A stretch of 32,534 nucleotides of DNA from NCBI GenBank assembly GCA_902622825.1, contig CACNRH010000007.1, forward strand, positions 1 through 32,534, written 5' to 3'. The stretch is from an uncultured Pelagibacteraceae bacterium (GTDB lineage: Bacteria > Pseudomonadota > Alphaproteobacteria > Pelagibacterales > Pelagibacteraceae). This document shows, piece by piece, positions 20,339 to 24,802 of the stretch. The notes beneath the pieces are model-generated. The model was not told the DNA's origin and made no database searches. It worked only from the letters and a program-made list of their open reading frames with translations. The position numbers were made by a program, and so were the translations under genes. Positions within the stretch are counted from its first letter, which is position 1. Each line of letters opens with the position of its first letter.

Positions 20339-21409
20339 TTAAAAACATACCAGATGGTCAATAAAAATCGGAGTTTTAATACCAAATTTTTCTGACTTTT
20401 CATGTTGATGAATATGATGTGAGTGAACAAATACTGGTAATTGTTCCCCGGATTTAGTTTTTAAAGTATAGACAAAATTGGTTCCTCTGAATTTTCTGTC
20501 AATAACTTCAAGTTTAAGTGAGCTTTGATCATCATGAATTAAATCTTCAGGTTGTAACAGCAGTTTTACATTCGACCCTGCTGGAAAATTATTTAATAAT
20601 TTTCCTTTGATTTCACCTAATTCTTCATGTTGTAAGCTATGAACAGCACAATCGCTGCTAACAACTTTTACATCAACGAACACACCTTTGTTAAGAAATT
20701 TAGCCACCTCAATAGAATTAGGCTCATGGTGCACATTATAAGGAACATCAAATTGTTTTAGTTCTTGATTAAGAATTATTCCACATTTATCAGCTAATGA
20801 GAAAGCTTCATATGAGTCATGGGTTACAATTATTGTTGTTAAATTTATTTTCTTAATCAATTTTTTGACTGAGTATTGCAATTCTTCTTTTAAACTTTGA
20901 TCAATATTAGCAAATGGTTCATCAAGTAACAACAAATCAGGTTTTGACATTAAGGATCTTGCAAGTGAAACCCTCTGGGCTTCGCCAGCGCTTATCTGAT
21001 GAGGAAATTTATTTAATAATGGAGCAATATGTAAGAGTTCGATAATATCATTTTCATCATAAGTGTACCCACTATTATCGGATTTTTTTTTTCCAAAATT
21101 TATATTTTCAATAACTTTATAATTCGGAAACAAAGAATTATCTTGAAACGATAGAGCAATATTTCTTTTTTCAGGAGGCAAATGATAATCTTTGGAAGAA
21201 ATAAGTTTTTCTTTTAAAAAAATTTCACCATTTTCAACTTTTTGAAGACCCGCTATAGATCTTAATATTGTTGTTTTACCAACACCTGAGGGGCCTAATA
21301 ATGTAATAATCTCACCTTGTTTATCTATTTTAAGATCAACATTTTTAACTTTATTTTTTTCACTAGCATAGAAATCAACATTTTTAATTTCAAAAAATGA
21401 ATTAGACAT
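20339..21409 (-). CDS. fbpC: Iron(III) ABC transporter, ATP-binding subunit
   Basis: Energises ferric-iron import through FbpB. The 356-residue protein has Walker A GPSGVGKTT (residues 39-47), Q-loop SFQDNSLFPNY, a slightly divergent signature ISAGEAQRVSLARSL in place of LSGGQ, Walker B LLLLDEPFANID, and H-loop VTHDSYEAF. A C-terminal regulatory OB-like domain (about residues 240-356) contains VKLLLQPEDLI and FRGTNFVYTLKTKSGE, as in FbpC/PotA relatives. I choose the ATG at 21409 (MSNSFFEIKNVDFY); starting at 21484 would add 25 residues lying entirely in the 3' end of fbpB. It is last in fbpA-flavodoxin-fbpB-fbpC. Confidence 0.9.
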   Translation of the reverse strand: MSNSFFEIKNVDFYASEKNKVKNVDLKIDKQGEIITLLGPSGVGKTTILRSIAGLQKVENGEIFLKEKLISSKDYHLPPEKRNIALSFQDNSLFPNYKVIENINFGKKKSDNSGYTYDENDIIELLHIAPLLNKFPHQISAGEAQRVSLARSLMSKPDLLLLDEPFANIDQSLKEELQYSVKKLIKKINLTTIIVTHDSYEAFSLADKCGIILNQELKQFDVPYNVHHEPNSIEVAKFLNKGVFVDVKVVSSDCAVHSLQHEELGEIKGKLLNNFPAGSNVKLLLQPEDLIHDDQSSLKLEVIDRKFRGTNFVYTLKTKSGEQLPVFVHSHHIHQHEKSEKFGIKTPIFIDHLVCF

Positions 21410-21422
21410 TTGTAAGATTATA

Positions 21423-23039
21423 TTAGATTTTTTTAGAAAGTATATATCTTGAGGAAAATAAAAGCAAAATCGTTGACCAGCCAATTAAAAATAATGAGGG
21501 TAACGCAGCGGCTTCAAGCAAATCTTGTGATGCATAAATATAAGCTTGAGTTGCAAAAGTCTCAAAATTGAAAGGCCTTAAAATCATTGTCATTGGCAGT
21601 TCTTTAATTATCTCCAAAGAAATTAGGACTATAATTAAAATAATATTATTTTTTAGGTAAGGTATGTGAATTGACGAAAAAGTTTTAAATTTTGAATATC
21701 CAAGTAGATAAGCACTTTCGTCGATCGAATTATTTATTTTTTCATAAGATGATCTAATTCCATTAAATGAAAGTGAAAAAAATCGTACAAAATATGCCAG
21801 CACTAAACCAAATATTGATCCAATAAATATTTTTTTTGTACTTCCTAAATTTGTAACATTGGATAAAAATTCACTTAAATTAGAAAAAAAGGTAATGAAT
21901 GCTACCGCTAAAATCACTCCAGGTATAGCATAGCCTGATATGGAAAAAGTTGTTAAATAATTTAATATTTTACTTTTTGATATTCTATTACCGTAATTTA
22001 TAAATAAGGAGACCATAACTAAAATTATACTTGCCAGTCCTACAAGGTAAATAGTATTCAAATTAATTCTTAATATATCTAGATCCTGAATGTATTTTGG
22101 ATATTTAATTGTCCAATAAATCATCTGACTTAATGGAAATAAAAAACTTACAAATAAAACAATAAAACAAAATAAAAATACAAAGAAAGATTTACTGCCT
22201 GATAATTTTATTTTTTGAATTGGTTTGTAGCCTCTACCAGGCTGATGATATCTTGCCTCTTTCCTAGAATAAATTTCTAGAGATAGTAAAATTAATATAA
22301 ATAAAAGTAAGATGAATGAAATCTGGTTAGCTGTGTTGAGATCATCAAATGATAGCCATGAATTATATATTCCAGTTGTAAGCGTATTTACTCCAAAAAA
22401 TGAGACAGTTCCAAAATCTGAAAGACATTCCATAGAAACTAAGGCGAGCCCAGCAATTATAGCAGGTCTTGCAGATGGTAAAATAATTCTAAAAAAAGTT
22501 TCCTTTTCAGATAATCCAAGATTTTTTCCCACTTCCATATAATTATTAGACTGATAAAGAAAAGATGATCTTGTTAAAACGTAAACATATGGGAATAACG
22601 ATAAACTGATTGCCAGAATTGATCCAGCCATTCCATCAAATTTTGGAATGTGTTGATTATAATTATATTCCCCAAACACACTTATTAAAATTGTATACGC
22701 GGTACCGTAATTTTCAAAAAAAGCTATTAAAGAGAATGCATAAATATAAGCTGGGACAGCAAAAGCTAATATTAGAGCCCAACTAAAAAAATTTGAAAAC
22801 GGGAAGTCATAAAAAGATACAAAATATGCTAATGTAACTCCTATTGTAAAAGTAATGATTAAAACCATTGATAACAAAAATATTGAATTGAATATGTATT
22901 CGTAAAGAAATGTTCTTTTTAATAAATCAAAATAAAGACTTGTTTCAGAAAAAAAACTACTAAAAACTGTTAATATCGGTAGTGCTACAATTGAAGCAAT
23001 TAGAAAAGAGCTGAAAAACCAGAAATTATATTTTGACAT
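21423..23039 (-). CDS. fbpB: Iron(III) ABC transporter, fused permease
   Basis: Inner-membrane channel for ferric iron delivered by FbpA. The 538-residue protein is two permease halves in one chain, as is usual for FbpB/SfuB. Each half carries an EAA-type loop: GKNLGLSEKETFFRIILPSA near residue 175, and ESAYLLGYSKFKTFSSIHIP near residue 440. Hydrophobic helices fill the rest. It begins 12 bp after the flavodoxin stop and ends 13 bp before fbpC, so the order is a single operon. Confidence 0.92.
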   Translation of the reverse strand: MSKYNFWFFSSFLIASIVALPILTVFSSFFSETSLYFDLLKRTFLYEYIFNSIFLLSMVLIITFTIGVTLAYFVSFYDFPFSNFFSWALILAFAVPAYIYAFSLIAFFENYGTAYTILISVFGEYNYNQHIPKFDGMAGSILAISLSLFPYVYVLTRSSFLYQSNNYMEVGKNLGLSEKETFFRIILPSARPAIIAGLALVSMECLSDFGTVSFFGVNTLTTGIYNSWLSFDDLNTANQISFILLLFILILLSLEIYSRKEARYHQPGRGYKPIQKIKLSGSKSFFVFLFCFIVLFVSFLFPLSQMIYWTIKYPKYIQDLDILRINLNTIYLVGLASIILVMVSLFINYGNRISKSKILNYLTTFSISGYAIPGVILAVAFITFFSNLSEFLSNVTNLGSTKKIFIGSIFGLVLAYFVRFFSLSFNGIRSSYEKINNSIDESAYLLGYSKFKTFSSIHIPYLKNNIILIIVLISLEIIKELPMTMILRPFNFETFATQAYIYASQDLLEAAALPSLFLIGWSTILLLFSSRYILSKKI

Positions 23040-23051
23040 TAATTAACCGTA

Positions 23052-23648
23052 TTAGTCTTCAGATTTACCCGTAAGCGGTCTAAAGATTTTTTTTGCCTCA
23101 TTAAAATTAATATCTTTTGGGTCTCTATTTTTTAGTTTATTTGCGATTTTTTTTGAGTCATTATTGCATGTTTCACAAGTACCACTTGGTGACATTTTTA
23201 AATTACCAGATATTTTATCTTTTAACACCTTTATAAATTTAATAGACCATTCATAAGTTCCTTCTGTGTCTCCATCGCATTCAAGTCTATCAATAATTCT
23301 ATTAGACTCTAATTTATCTAGTTTCATACTTATTTTTCTTCCAGCACCACAGAATTTATCATGAGATCTGTCTCCTAATGCAATCAATCCGTAATTTTGA
23401 TTAACTAATTTTGTGTCTCTAAATTCTAAACTTTTCCAAAAGTCTATGCCCATGTCTGGAACATCTCCATCTCCATAAGTGGAGGTTACAATTGCTACGT
23501 TTTTTAATTTACTGAACGACTCAAAATCAAAATCATTCATCTCGTACATTCTTGATTGAAATCCGGCTTCTTTTGAAAGTAACAAAAGTTTTTTTGCTAC
23601 CATTTCAGCGTTTCCGGTTGTTGAAGCGTATAAAATATCTAATTTCAT
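23052..23648 (-). CDS. Flavodoxin-domain protein resembling a truncated sulfite-reductase flavoprotein
   Basis: A 198-residue FMN-binding electron carrier. The flavodoxin fold is clear: the phosphate loop ASTTGNAE (residues 8-15), the second FMN loop TSTYGDGDVPD (55-65), and ALGDRSHDKFCGAGRK (90-105). This wording fits the CysJ/P450-reductase/MioC subgroup. Residues about 150-198 form a tail with a CETC motif (Cys158, Cys161), and the end (KDINFNEAKKIFRPLTGKSED) resembles the first strand of the FAD domain of CysJ, after which the gene stops. It could be a stand-alone electron donor, perhaps reducing ferric iron or replacing ferredoxin. It lies between fbpA and fbpB, so it should share their iron control. 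No clear Shine-Dalgarno precedes the ATG at 23648. Confidence 0.85.
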   Translation of the reverse strand: MKLDILYASTTGNAEMVAKKLLLLSKEAGFQSRMYEMNDFDFESFSKLKNVAIVTSTYGDGDVPDMGIDFWKSLEFRDTKLVNQNYGLIALGDRSHDKFCGAGRKISMKLDKLESNRIIDRLECDGDTEGTYEWSIKFIKVLKDKISGNLKMSPSGTCETCNNDSKKIANKLKNRDPKDINFNEAKKIFRPLTGKSED

Positions 23649-23661
23649 TTTAATTTACAAA

Positions 23662-23692
23662 TATTAGAGGCGTATTTATTACGCCTCTAATA
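23662..23692 (-). other. Intercistronic hairpin after fbpA
   Basis: A perfect 13-bp inverted repeat, TATTAGAGGCGTA and TACGCCTCTAATA, surrounds a 5-nt loop (23675-23679). It begins 11 nt after the fbpA stop and ends 13 nt before the flavodoxin start. No U-run follows, so it looks less like an intrinsic terminator than a 3'-end protecting or processing hairpin that lets fbpA mRNA outlast the downstream part of the operon. Confidence 0.82.
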
Positions 23693-23703
23693 AAATTTAT
23701 TGA

Positions 23704-24720
23704 CTATTTCCAACCTGCTGCAGTCATTACTTCTAATGCATCAGCTTGTCTTTTTCCGTAGTTAACTACTTTTGTTTTTAGATCTTGTTTAAAATCTAAA
23801 CCCATATTTACTACAAGAGGATGTGGTGAAACACCTGAAATCATTGGATACTCGAAAGTATTATTTACTATATGATTTTGAGCTTCTTCGCTTAGTAAGA
23901 ACTCGACTAATTTTATTGCATTAGCTTTATTCGGAGCTCCTTTTACTAAACCAGCACCACTAATATTCATATGCGTTCCTCTGCCATCTTGATTTGGGAA
24001 GAAAGGTTTAACTTTTTTTGCTGCAGCTTGTTGTTCTGCACCTTTTTTTCCAGATAACATCAGCGCTAAATAATAAGTATTAGCTACTGCTATATCAGCA
24101 TCTCCAGCAGCAACAGCAAGTATCTGTGCTCTGTCGTTTCCTTTTGGAGATCTAGCCATATTTGAAACCATTCCTTTTGACCATTCAGCTACTTTACCTT
24201 TACCATTATTTTTAATTAGTGAAGCAACCAGTGATTGGTTATAAATATTATTTGAGGCTCTTATTACTAATCTACCTTTCCATTTTGGATCAGCTAAACT
24301 TTCATAAGTTAAACCTGCTAGCTCTGCGCCGCTAACTCTCTCAGGAGCAAAATAAACTATTCTTGCTCTTTTTGCTATTCCAACCCACTTGTTTGTTCTA
24401 AAGTTGCTTGGAACCGCTGATTTGATTGCAGAGCTTGTAAGGCCAGATTGTAAATTGCCCGAGAACGCGCCTAATCTTCCAGCGTCAGCTGTTATATATA
24501 AGTCAGCTTTACTATCTGCTCCCTCTTCTGCTATCCTTTTCTCTAATGCTCCAGACTTTCCAGATACAACATTAACTTTAATTCCAGTTTTAGCTGTAAA
24601 TTTTTCATAAAGCTGTATGTCCGAGTCATAATGTCTTGCACTAAAGATGTTAACTTCATTTGCAAGAACGTTAGATGCAACAAATAATAAAGTTGCAACT
24701 ATAAGTGTTATTTTTCTCAT
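23704..24720 (-). CDS. fbpA: Iron(III) ABC transporter, periplasmic ferric-binding protein
   Basis: Binds ferric iron in the periplasm. From the ATG at 24720 it is 338 residues, beginning with a type I signal peptide MRKITLIVATLLFVASNVLA. Iron-ligand landmarks of the FbpA/FutA/SfuA family are visible: SARHYDSD (His30, Tyr31), TADAGRLGAF, SNNIYNQSLVASLI and the Tyr216-Tyr217 pair in VANTYYLALM. The ATG at 24720 is preferred over one at 24759 because GAGGGAAAG lies just upstream and the signal peptide starts there; the longer version would run through the operator. It heads the operon fbpA-flavodoxin-fbpB-fbpC. Confidence 0.94.
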   Translation of the reverse strand: MRKITLIVATLLFVASNVLANEVNIFSARHYDSDIQLYEKFTAKTGIKVNVVSGKSGALEKRIAEEGADSKADLYITADAGRLGAFSGNLQSGLTSSAIKSAVPSNFRTNKWVGIAKRARIVYFAPERVSGAELAGLTYESLADPKWKGRLVIRASNNIYNQSLVASLIKNNGKGKVAEWSKGMVSNMARSPKGNDRAQILAVAAGDADIAVANTYYLALMLSGKKGAEQQAAAKKVKPFFPNQDGRGTHMNISGAGLVKGAPNKANAIKLVEFLLSEEAQNHIVNNTFEYPMISGVSPHPLVVNMGLDFKQDLKTKVVNYGKRQADALEVMTAAGWK

Positions 24721-24743
24721 TTTTACTTTCCCTCGTTTTATAT

Positions 24744-24758
24744 TGATAATGATTATCA
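24744..24758 (-). promoter_or_regulatory. Fur-box-like operator 1 (perfect 7-1-7 palindrome)
   Basis: TGATAATGATTATCA is an exact 7-1-7 inverted repeat, the classical Fur-box core. It covers the predicted transcription start of fbpA (near 24757), where a bound repressor would block initiation under iron sufficiency. Confidence 0.82.
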
Positions 24759-24763
24759 TTTAC

Positions 24764-24792
24764 ATTGTACTGCAAATGATTATCAGTTGCAA
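24764..24792 (-). promoter_or_regulatory. Candidate promoter of the fbpA iron operon
   Basis: On the minus strand TTGCAA (24787-24792) serves as -35 and TACAAT (24764-24769) as -10, with a 17-bp spacer. Operator 2 overlaps the spacer and -35 region, and operator 1 overlaps the start site. Transcription would begin about 37 nt before the fbpA ATG. Confidence 0.6.
24771..24791 (-). promoter_or_regulatory. Fur/Mur-like operator 2 (near-perfect 10-1-10 palindrome)
   Basis: The half sites are TGCAAATGAT (24771-24780) and ATCAGTTGCA (24782-24791) around a central T, with a single mismatch. The TGCAA...TTGCA flanks recall the alphaproteobacterial Fur/Mur box, while the core ATGATTATCA-type sequence repeats that of operator 1. 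The two centres, 24751 and 24781, are exactly 30 bp apart, about three helical turns. Confidence 0.72.
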
Positions 24793-24802
24793 TAGTGTCG
24801 CA

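Follow-up and report, generated by a model that had tools for sequence, protein, structure and literature searches.

The analysed stretch of DNA (the window; 32,534 nucleotides) is contig C7 of a 680-kb genome assembly that is 67% complete. An iron(III) uptake operon on its minus strand comprises sfuC, a flavodoxin-like gene, sfuB and sfuA, and is preceded by two Fur-like boxes and a short conserved block (Table 1). The sfuC product matches 6g7n (E 1.7e-91) and FutA1 2pt1 (E 5.4e-90). The ORF-caller start of sfuC, at 24759, falls within the operator and is unlikely to be the true start; the real start of sfuA is probably later than listed. Of the roughly 104 sfuC loci inspected, some of them truncated, just 4 show the flavodoxin-like insertion; the inserted gene may serve to spare iron and be controlled by the same Fur. 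The hairpin between sfuC and this gene, on the transcribed strand, is possibly a processing or attenuation site and could set the ratio of sfuC to sfuBA expression. Upstream of the operator lies an EamA gene, the stop codon of which directly precedes the TGCGACA block.

Table 1. Features of the sfuC operon and its upstream region, in the direction of transcription.
Feature	Position	Strand	Remarks
TGCGACA (conserved TGCGWCA block)	24796..24802	-	10 bp upstream of distal TGATAAT
-35 hexamer TTGCAA	24787..24792	-	predicted only; 9 of 12 matches, spacer 17
Distal Fur box	24771..24791	-	21-mer TGCAACTGATAATCATTTGCA, 5 mismatches to the 21-bp consensus
Distal 15-mer	24771-24785	-	TGATAATCATTTGCA, 2/15 mismatches; inside the -35/-10 spacer
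-10 hexamer TACAAT	24764..24769	-	predicted only
Proximal Fur box	24744..24764	-	21-bp (7-1-7)2 box TGTAAATGATAATCATTATCA, 2 mismatches to consensus
Exact 15-mer inside proximal box	24744-24758	-	TGATAATCATTATCA, 0/15 mismatches
Ribosome-binding site GAGGG	24730..24734	-	9 nt ahead of the start codon
sfuC/fbpA	23704..24720	-	FutA1-type periplasmic iron(III)-binding protein, 338 aa, signal peptide
Hairpin	23662..23692	-	13-bp stem, between sfuC and the flavodoxin-like gene
Flavodoxin-like gene	23052..23648	-	CysJ-type domain, between sfuC and sfuB
sfuB	21423..23039	-	iron(III) ABC permease, two BPD_transp_1 stretches
sfuA	20339..21484	-	ABC ATPase, listed start overlaps sfuB

The proximal box reads as a perfect 7-1-7 palindrome at 24744-24758, and the distal box as a 10-1-10 palindrome with one mismatch at 24771-24791; both were re-read, and an earlier sequence-only reading had their sequences and coordinates right. 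Palindromes of such sizes are common in the window: the perfect 7-1-7 type occurs 10 times where chance predicts 6.7, and the 10-1-10 type, with one mismatch or none, 6 times where it predicts 4.1. These counts would suit an origin of both palindromes by chance in AT-rich DNA and, as they show no excess over it, palindromy was rejected as evidence. What is significant is the match to the Fur consensus, not palindromy. An exact copy of TGATAATnATTATCA occurs once in the 680-kb genome, where it is the proximal box, and a tandem pair equally good against the 21-bp Fur consensus appeared in none of 300 simulated windows. With the exact consensus, the tandem pair and a conservation in two families that already refutes it, the chance explanation is hardly credible. 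Both palindromes are predicted Fur boxes, each conforming to the 7-1-7 form TGATAATnATTATCA or to the overlapping 21-bp (7-1-7)2 form. At two mismatches to the Fur 15-mer, the level of the distal box, the genome and the control both give 22 sites, and the scan for further Fur targets at this threshold is uninformative.

The boxes had been described as exactly 30 bp apart and on the same helix face. This distance mixes the center of a 15-mer with the center of a 21-mer; in a single register (24778 to 24751, or 24781 to 24754) it is 27 bp, and the claim of a common helix face therefore fails. The best promoter match, TTGCAA-17-TACAAT (24792-24764, minus strand), is one of 13 matches in 2 kb, with 8.3 expected by chance. 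The left TGCAA arm of the distal box overlaps the predicted -35 hexamer, while the proximal box begins at the final base of the predicted -10 hexamer and spans the presumed start site. The boxes lie over predicted promoter elements of an iron gene, the FutA1-type sfuC, and the earlier placement of one box on the -35/spacer and the other on the start region holds as a prediction only.

To follow the operator across SAR11, as had been proposed, 90 upstream regions of sfuC orthologues were gathered from two families of the order. The Fur-box core TGATAATCATT, with at most one change, precedes the gene in 89 of them; the alignment was anchored on this core, which is thus conserved by construction, and the flanks are independent. 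Where records with this promoter pattern are named, they belong to the Pelagibacteraceae and hence to SAR11. The right half-site of the relatives consists of ATT, then AT, CT, CG, TT or TG, and finally CA; at the position of the distal box they carry ATTCTCA, ATTATCA, ATTCGCA or ATTTTCA. Given this variability, the ATTTGCA of the window is one variant of the same half-site. A second box follows 27 bp downstream in all 15 promoters that share the layout of the window, and 16 bp downstream in 41 other SAR11 promoters under a strict pattern. Fur-pattern sites mostly number 1-6 per genome, compared with 0-1 in the control.

A search for Fur, Irr, RirA and Mur homologs, another check suggested earlier, yielded three Fur-family proteins, namely Fur (L002), Irr (L003) and a Zur-like protein (L004), and no match to the Rrf2 family (RirA/IscR) in this 67%-complete genome. 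L002 is an alphaproteobacterial-type Fur (PF01475, E 1.0e-35) whose best matches are the Fur proteins of Magnetospirillum gryphiswaldense and Rhizobium leguminosarum, and it shows 66-94% identity across the family. Its recognition helix, ATVYRT, retains the Tyr-Arg pair with which M. gryphiswaldense Fur reads DNA (alignment to 4ray), and a cognate Fur is encoded in the same genome as the boxes. The corresponding helix of Irr is ATIYNT, with Asn where Fur has the DNA-reading Arg. The best NCBIfam scores of L003 are to IrrA/Irr, under the curated cut-offs. The irr gene adjoins katG-like and fabA/fabB-like genes, and the zur-like gene adjoins an ABC metal transporter. Irr control involves an ICE-type TTAGAAnnnTTCTAA motif, whereas the operator as read shows Fur-type half-sites.

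The sequence-only reading also raised the idea that two box types side by side serve two regulators. Under such a scheme, Fur would for example take the proximal box, leaving the distal one with its TGCAA flanks to Irr or a further member of the Fur family. The genome does encode Irr and Zur, and the distal box has TGCAA/TTGCA arms that deviate from TGATAAT. However, these arms are Fur half-site variants: relatives carry plain Fur half-sites at this position along with the conserved core, and the left arm coincides with part of the predicted -35 hexamer. Moreover, the closest solved Fur, that of M. gryphiswaldense, binds both TGCAAAT/ATTTGCA and GATAAT-type half-sites and was crystallised on TTAATTGCAAATCATTTGCAATTGC and on CGCGATAATGATAATCATTATCCGC (PMC4506495; PDB 4rb1-4rb3). 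Both a TGCAAATCATTTGCA operator and a GATAATGATAATCATTATC box are present in its structures, and the bases are read by Arg57 and Tyr56 (PMC4506495). Because this related Fur binds TGCAAATCATTTGCA as well as GATAAT-type DNA, a single Fur would explain both boxes, and a division between two regulators is quite unlikely. The Magnetospirillum system differs in its target genes, and in the window both kinds of half-site are mixed in one distal box.

The Fur of R. leguminosarum acts as a manganese sensor. L002 matches this protein (5fd5) nearly as well as it does Magnetospirillum Fur, which would be compatible with a manganese-responsive Mur in place of an iron-responsive Fur. This alternative is nevertheless unlikely, as the target is an iron(III) transporter. 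Its orthologue is induced by iron limitation (PMC2864753), and published surveys report manganese uptake systems to be largely absent from SAR11 genomes (PMC4771312).

Boxes of an Rrf2-type regulator, either RirA or IscR, were considered as well. The IRO-type pattern TGA-N9-TCA is contained within the Fur box, and Rrf2 proteins are found in 10 of the 12 genus members examined, the present incomplete genome giving no match. In the one relative whose locus was inspected, however, the Rrf2 gene is immediately upstream of sufB, a position typical of IscR and not of RirA. Since the full TGATAATnATTNTCA is conserved, and not TGA..TCA alone, control by such a protein is highly improbable.

The distribution of Fur and of the boxes was also compared. 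Three genomes of genus g4 (G009, G054 and G167) are without Fur and also without boxes; G009 and G054 are in addition without sfuC in the locus sample, which did not include G167. Three others (G038, G044 and G046) carry boxes with no true Fur match, probably on account of incomplete assemblies. From the conservation of the boxes across SAR11, sfuC is likely to be controlled by Fur rather than by Irr or RirA. The expectation that this arrangement would reveal which regulator SAR11 cells use is borne out in its direction, toward Fur over RirA and Irr, and is less novel than supposed, having been partly anticipated in print (PMC4771312).

The locus is very probably a tandem Fur operator of the sfuC(-flavodoxin)-sfuBA iron(III) uptake operon, that is, a Fur-repressed promoter. 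In the proposed mechanism, the two 21-bp boxes, 27 bp apart, would cover the -35/-10 spacer and the inferred transcription start. With enough iron in the cell, Fur dimers carrying metal, probably two to a box, would sit on the operator and keep RNA polymerase out; under iron shortage they would dissociate, allowing transcription of sfuC. This Fur would presumably be the repressor, with iron rather than manganese as its metal. Two components of the model are taken from the literature: the induction by iron limitation, from an orthologue, and the DNA binding, from a related Fur. M. gryphiswaldense Fur binds as one dimer to the feoAB1 operator and as two to a Pseudomonas aeruginosa Fur box (PMC4506495).

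The promoter is of a known kind, its conserved pair of boxes largely expected, with one unexplained element beside it. In the available part of their paper, Hogle and colleagues describe 7-1-7 Fur boxes before SAR11 Fe3+ transporters and FTR1 (PMC4771312), and the present sites resemble these as 7-1-7 inverted repeats before a FutA1/Fbp-type iron(III) transporter. That part of the paper names as targets only Fe3+ ABC transporters and FTR1 and contains neither the tandem 27-bp/16-bp architecture nor the TGCGWCA block. In Candidatus Pelagibacter ubique, the orthologous iron-binding protein gene sfuC rises 16-fold in mRNA and 27-fold in protein under iron limitation; the accessible portion of that study does not define the operator (PMC2864753), and the operon in the window adds the flavodoxin-like gene. 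Earlier, classical Fur-box models had found nothing in HTCC1062 (2011; PMC3090418). SAR11 bacteria occur in the ocean in extremely high numbers and are often limited by iron. Because published work describes them as lacking a genetic system, their regulators must be read from sequence. A likely controller, Fur, can now be named for sfuC, a gene proposed as a marker of iron limitation in the field, and the conservation yields a consensus with which the remainder of the SAR11 Fur regulon can be sought.

The unexplained element is TGCG(A/T)CA. Spread over two SAR11 families, 73 of the 90 promoters carry it 10-11 bp ahead of the distal box, while the columns upstream of it are unconserved. The composite pattern TGCGWCAN{10,11}TGATAATCATT was scanned over about 85,000 genomes. 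Among the 80 matches listed, 74 lie 40-80 bp before sfuC, 3 more lie near contig ends in the same context with no sfuC in the adjoining DNA, and 3 belong to unrelated organisms. None of 31 relatives has more than one copy of the composite in its genome, and the control has none. Several identities were tried for the block and rejected. It is not a general SAR11 promoter motif, as other intergenic DNA of these loci shows no enrichment (1 copy against 1.9 expected); symmetry and the variable fifth base speak against a Fur half-site; and as a -35 element of sfuC it has no -10-like hexamer at 16-18 bp. The motif recurs near a Fur box, at a distance of 12-15 bp, in the intergenic region between hemB and an Asp/Asn-hydroxylase-like gene; this holds for 16 genomes, all from a single genus. 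Some lineages without the block have promoters with TTGACA (L066-L068) or TTGATA-16/17-TATATA (L069-L072), which would fit a role of the block in helping a weak promoter. No known element explains it. A tentative proposal, which may well prove wrong, is that the block binds a second regulator or is itself an RNA-polymerase element, working jointly with Fur at SAR11 iron promoters.

Besides this conserved block, conserved Fur boxes at tRNA-Asp/nuoA and, in other SAR11, at hemB are newly seen here; the regulon was sampled by pattern searches. In this genome, a Fur box lies downstream of tRNA-Asp and upstream of nuoA (L097 1501-1515; G000:C14:4980-4994). The pattern of a tRNA end plus a box recurs in 22 further genomes (23 in total) from three genera, mostly with constant spacing between the two, the presence of nuoA downstream being confirmed by reading only in the loci fetched. 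In Caulobacter crescentus, Fur is a repressor of iron uptake and has a positive effect on nuo and sdh (PMC3751524), which makes it plausible that Fur controls complex I directly in SAR11. Most positive effects in Caulobacter are, however, thought to be indirect (PMC3751524), whereas the SAR11 box lies directly between tRNA-Asp and nuoA. The results point to direct control of complex I by Fur and to an extra conserved promoter element. Were the TGCGWCA block such a site, it would, with the tRNA-Asp/nuoA boxes, imply a small Fur regulon in SAR11 linking iron uptake, heme synthesis and complex I.

The Fur box with TGCGACA in the hemB intergenic region belongs to one SAR11 genus (L135, L138, L158, L160, L166-L168). 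It overlaps the hemB start codon, and its conservation could in part reflect protein-coding constraint. Fur-pattern sites also precede FTR1 in genus g2, and boxes within sdhD and other coding genes are weak. A further Fur box precedes a gene for a 58-aa Cys-rich protein that matches nothing in Pfam or NCBIfam (L161 1029-1294, L157), followed in L161 by a DUF2061 membrane protein gene. In the genome of the window, a Fur-like box, TGATAATGATTAGCA, lies 79 bp before petA, which encodes the bc1 Rieske subunit (L095 1501-1515; G000:C2:36188-36202).
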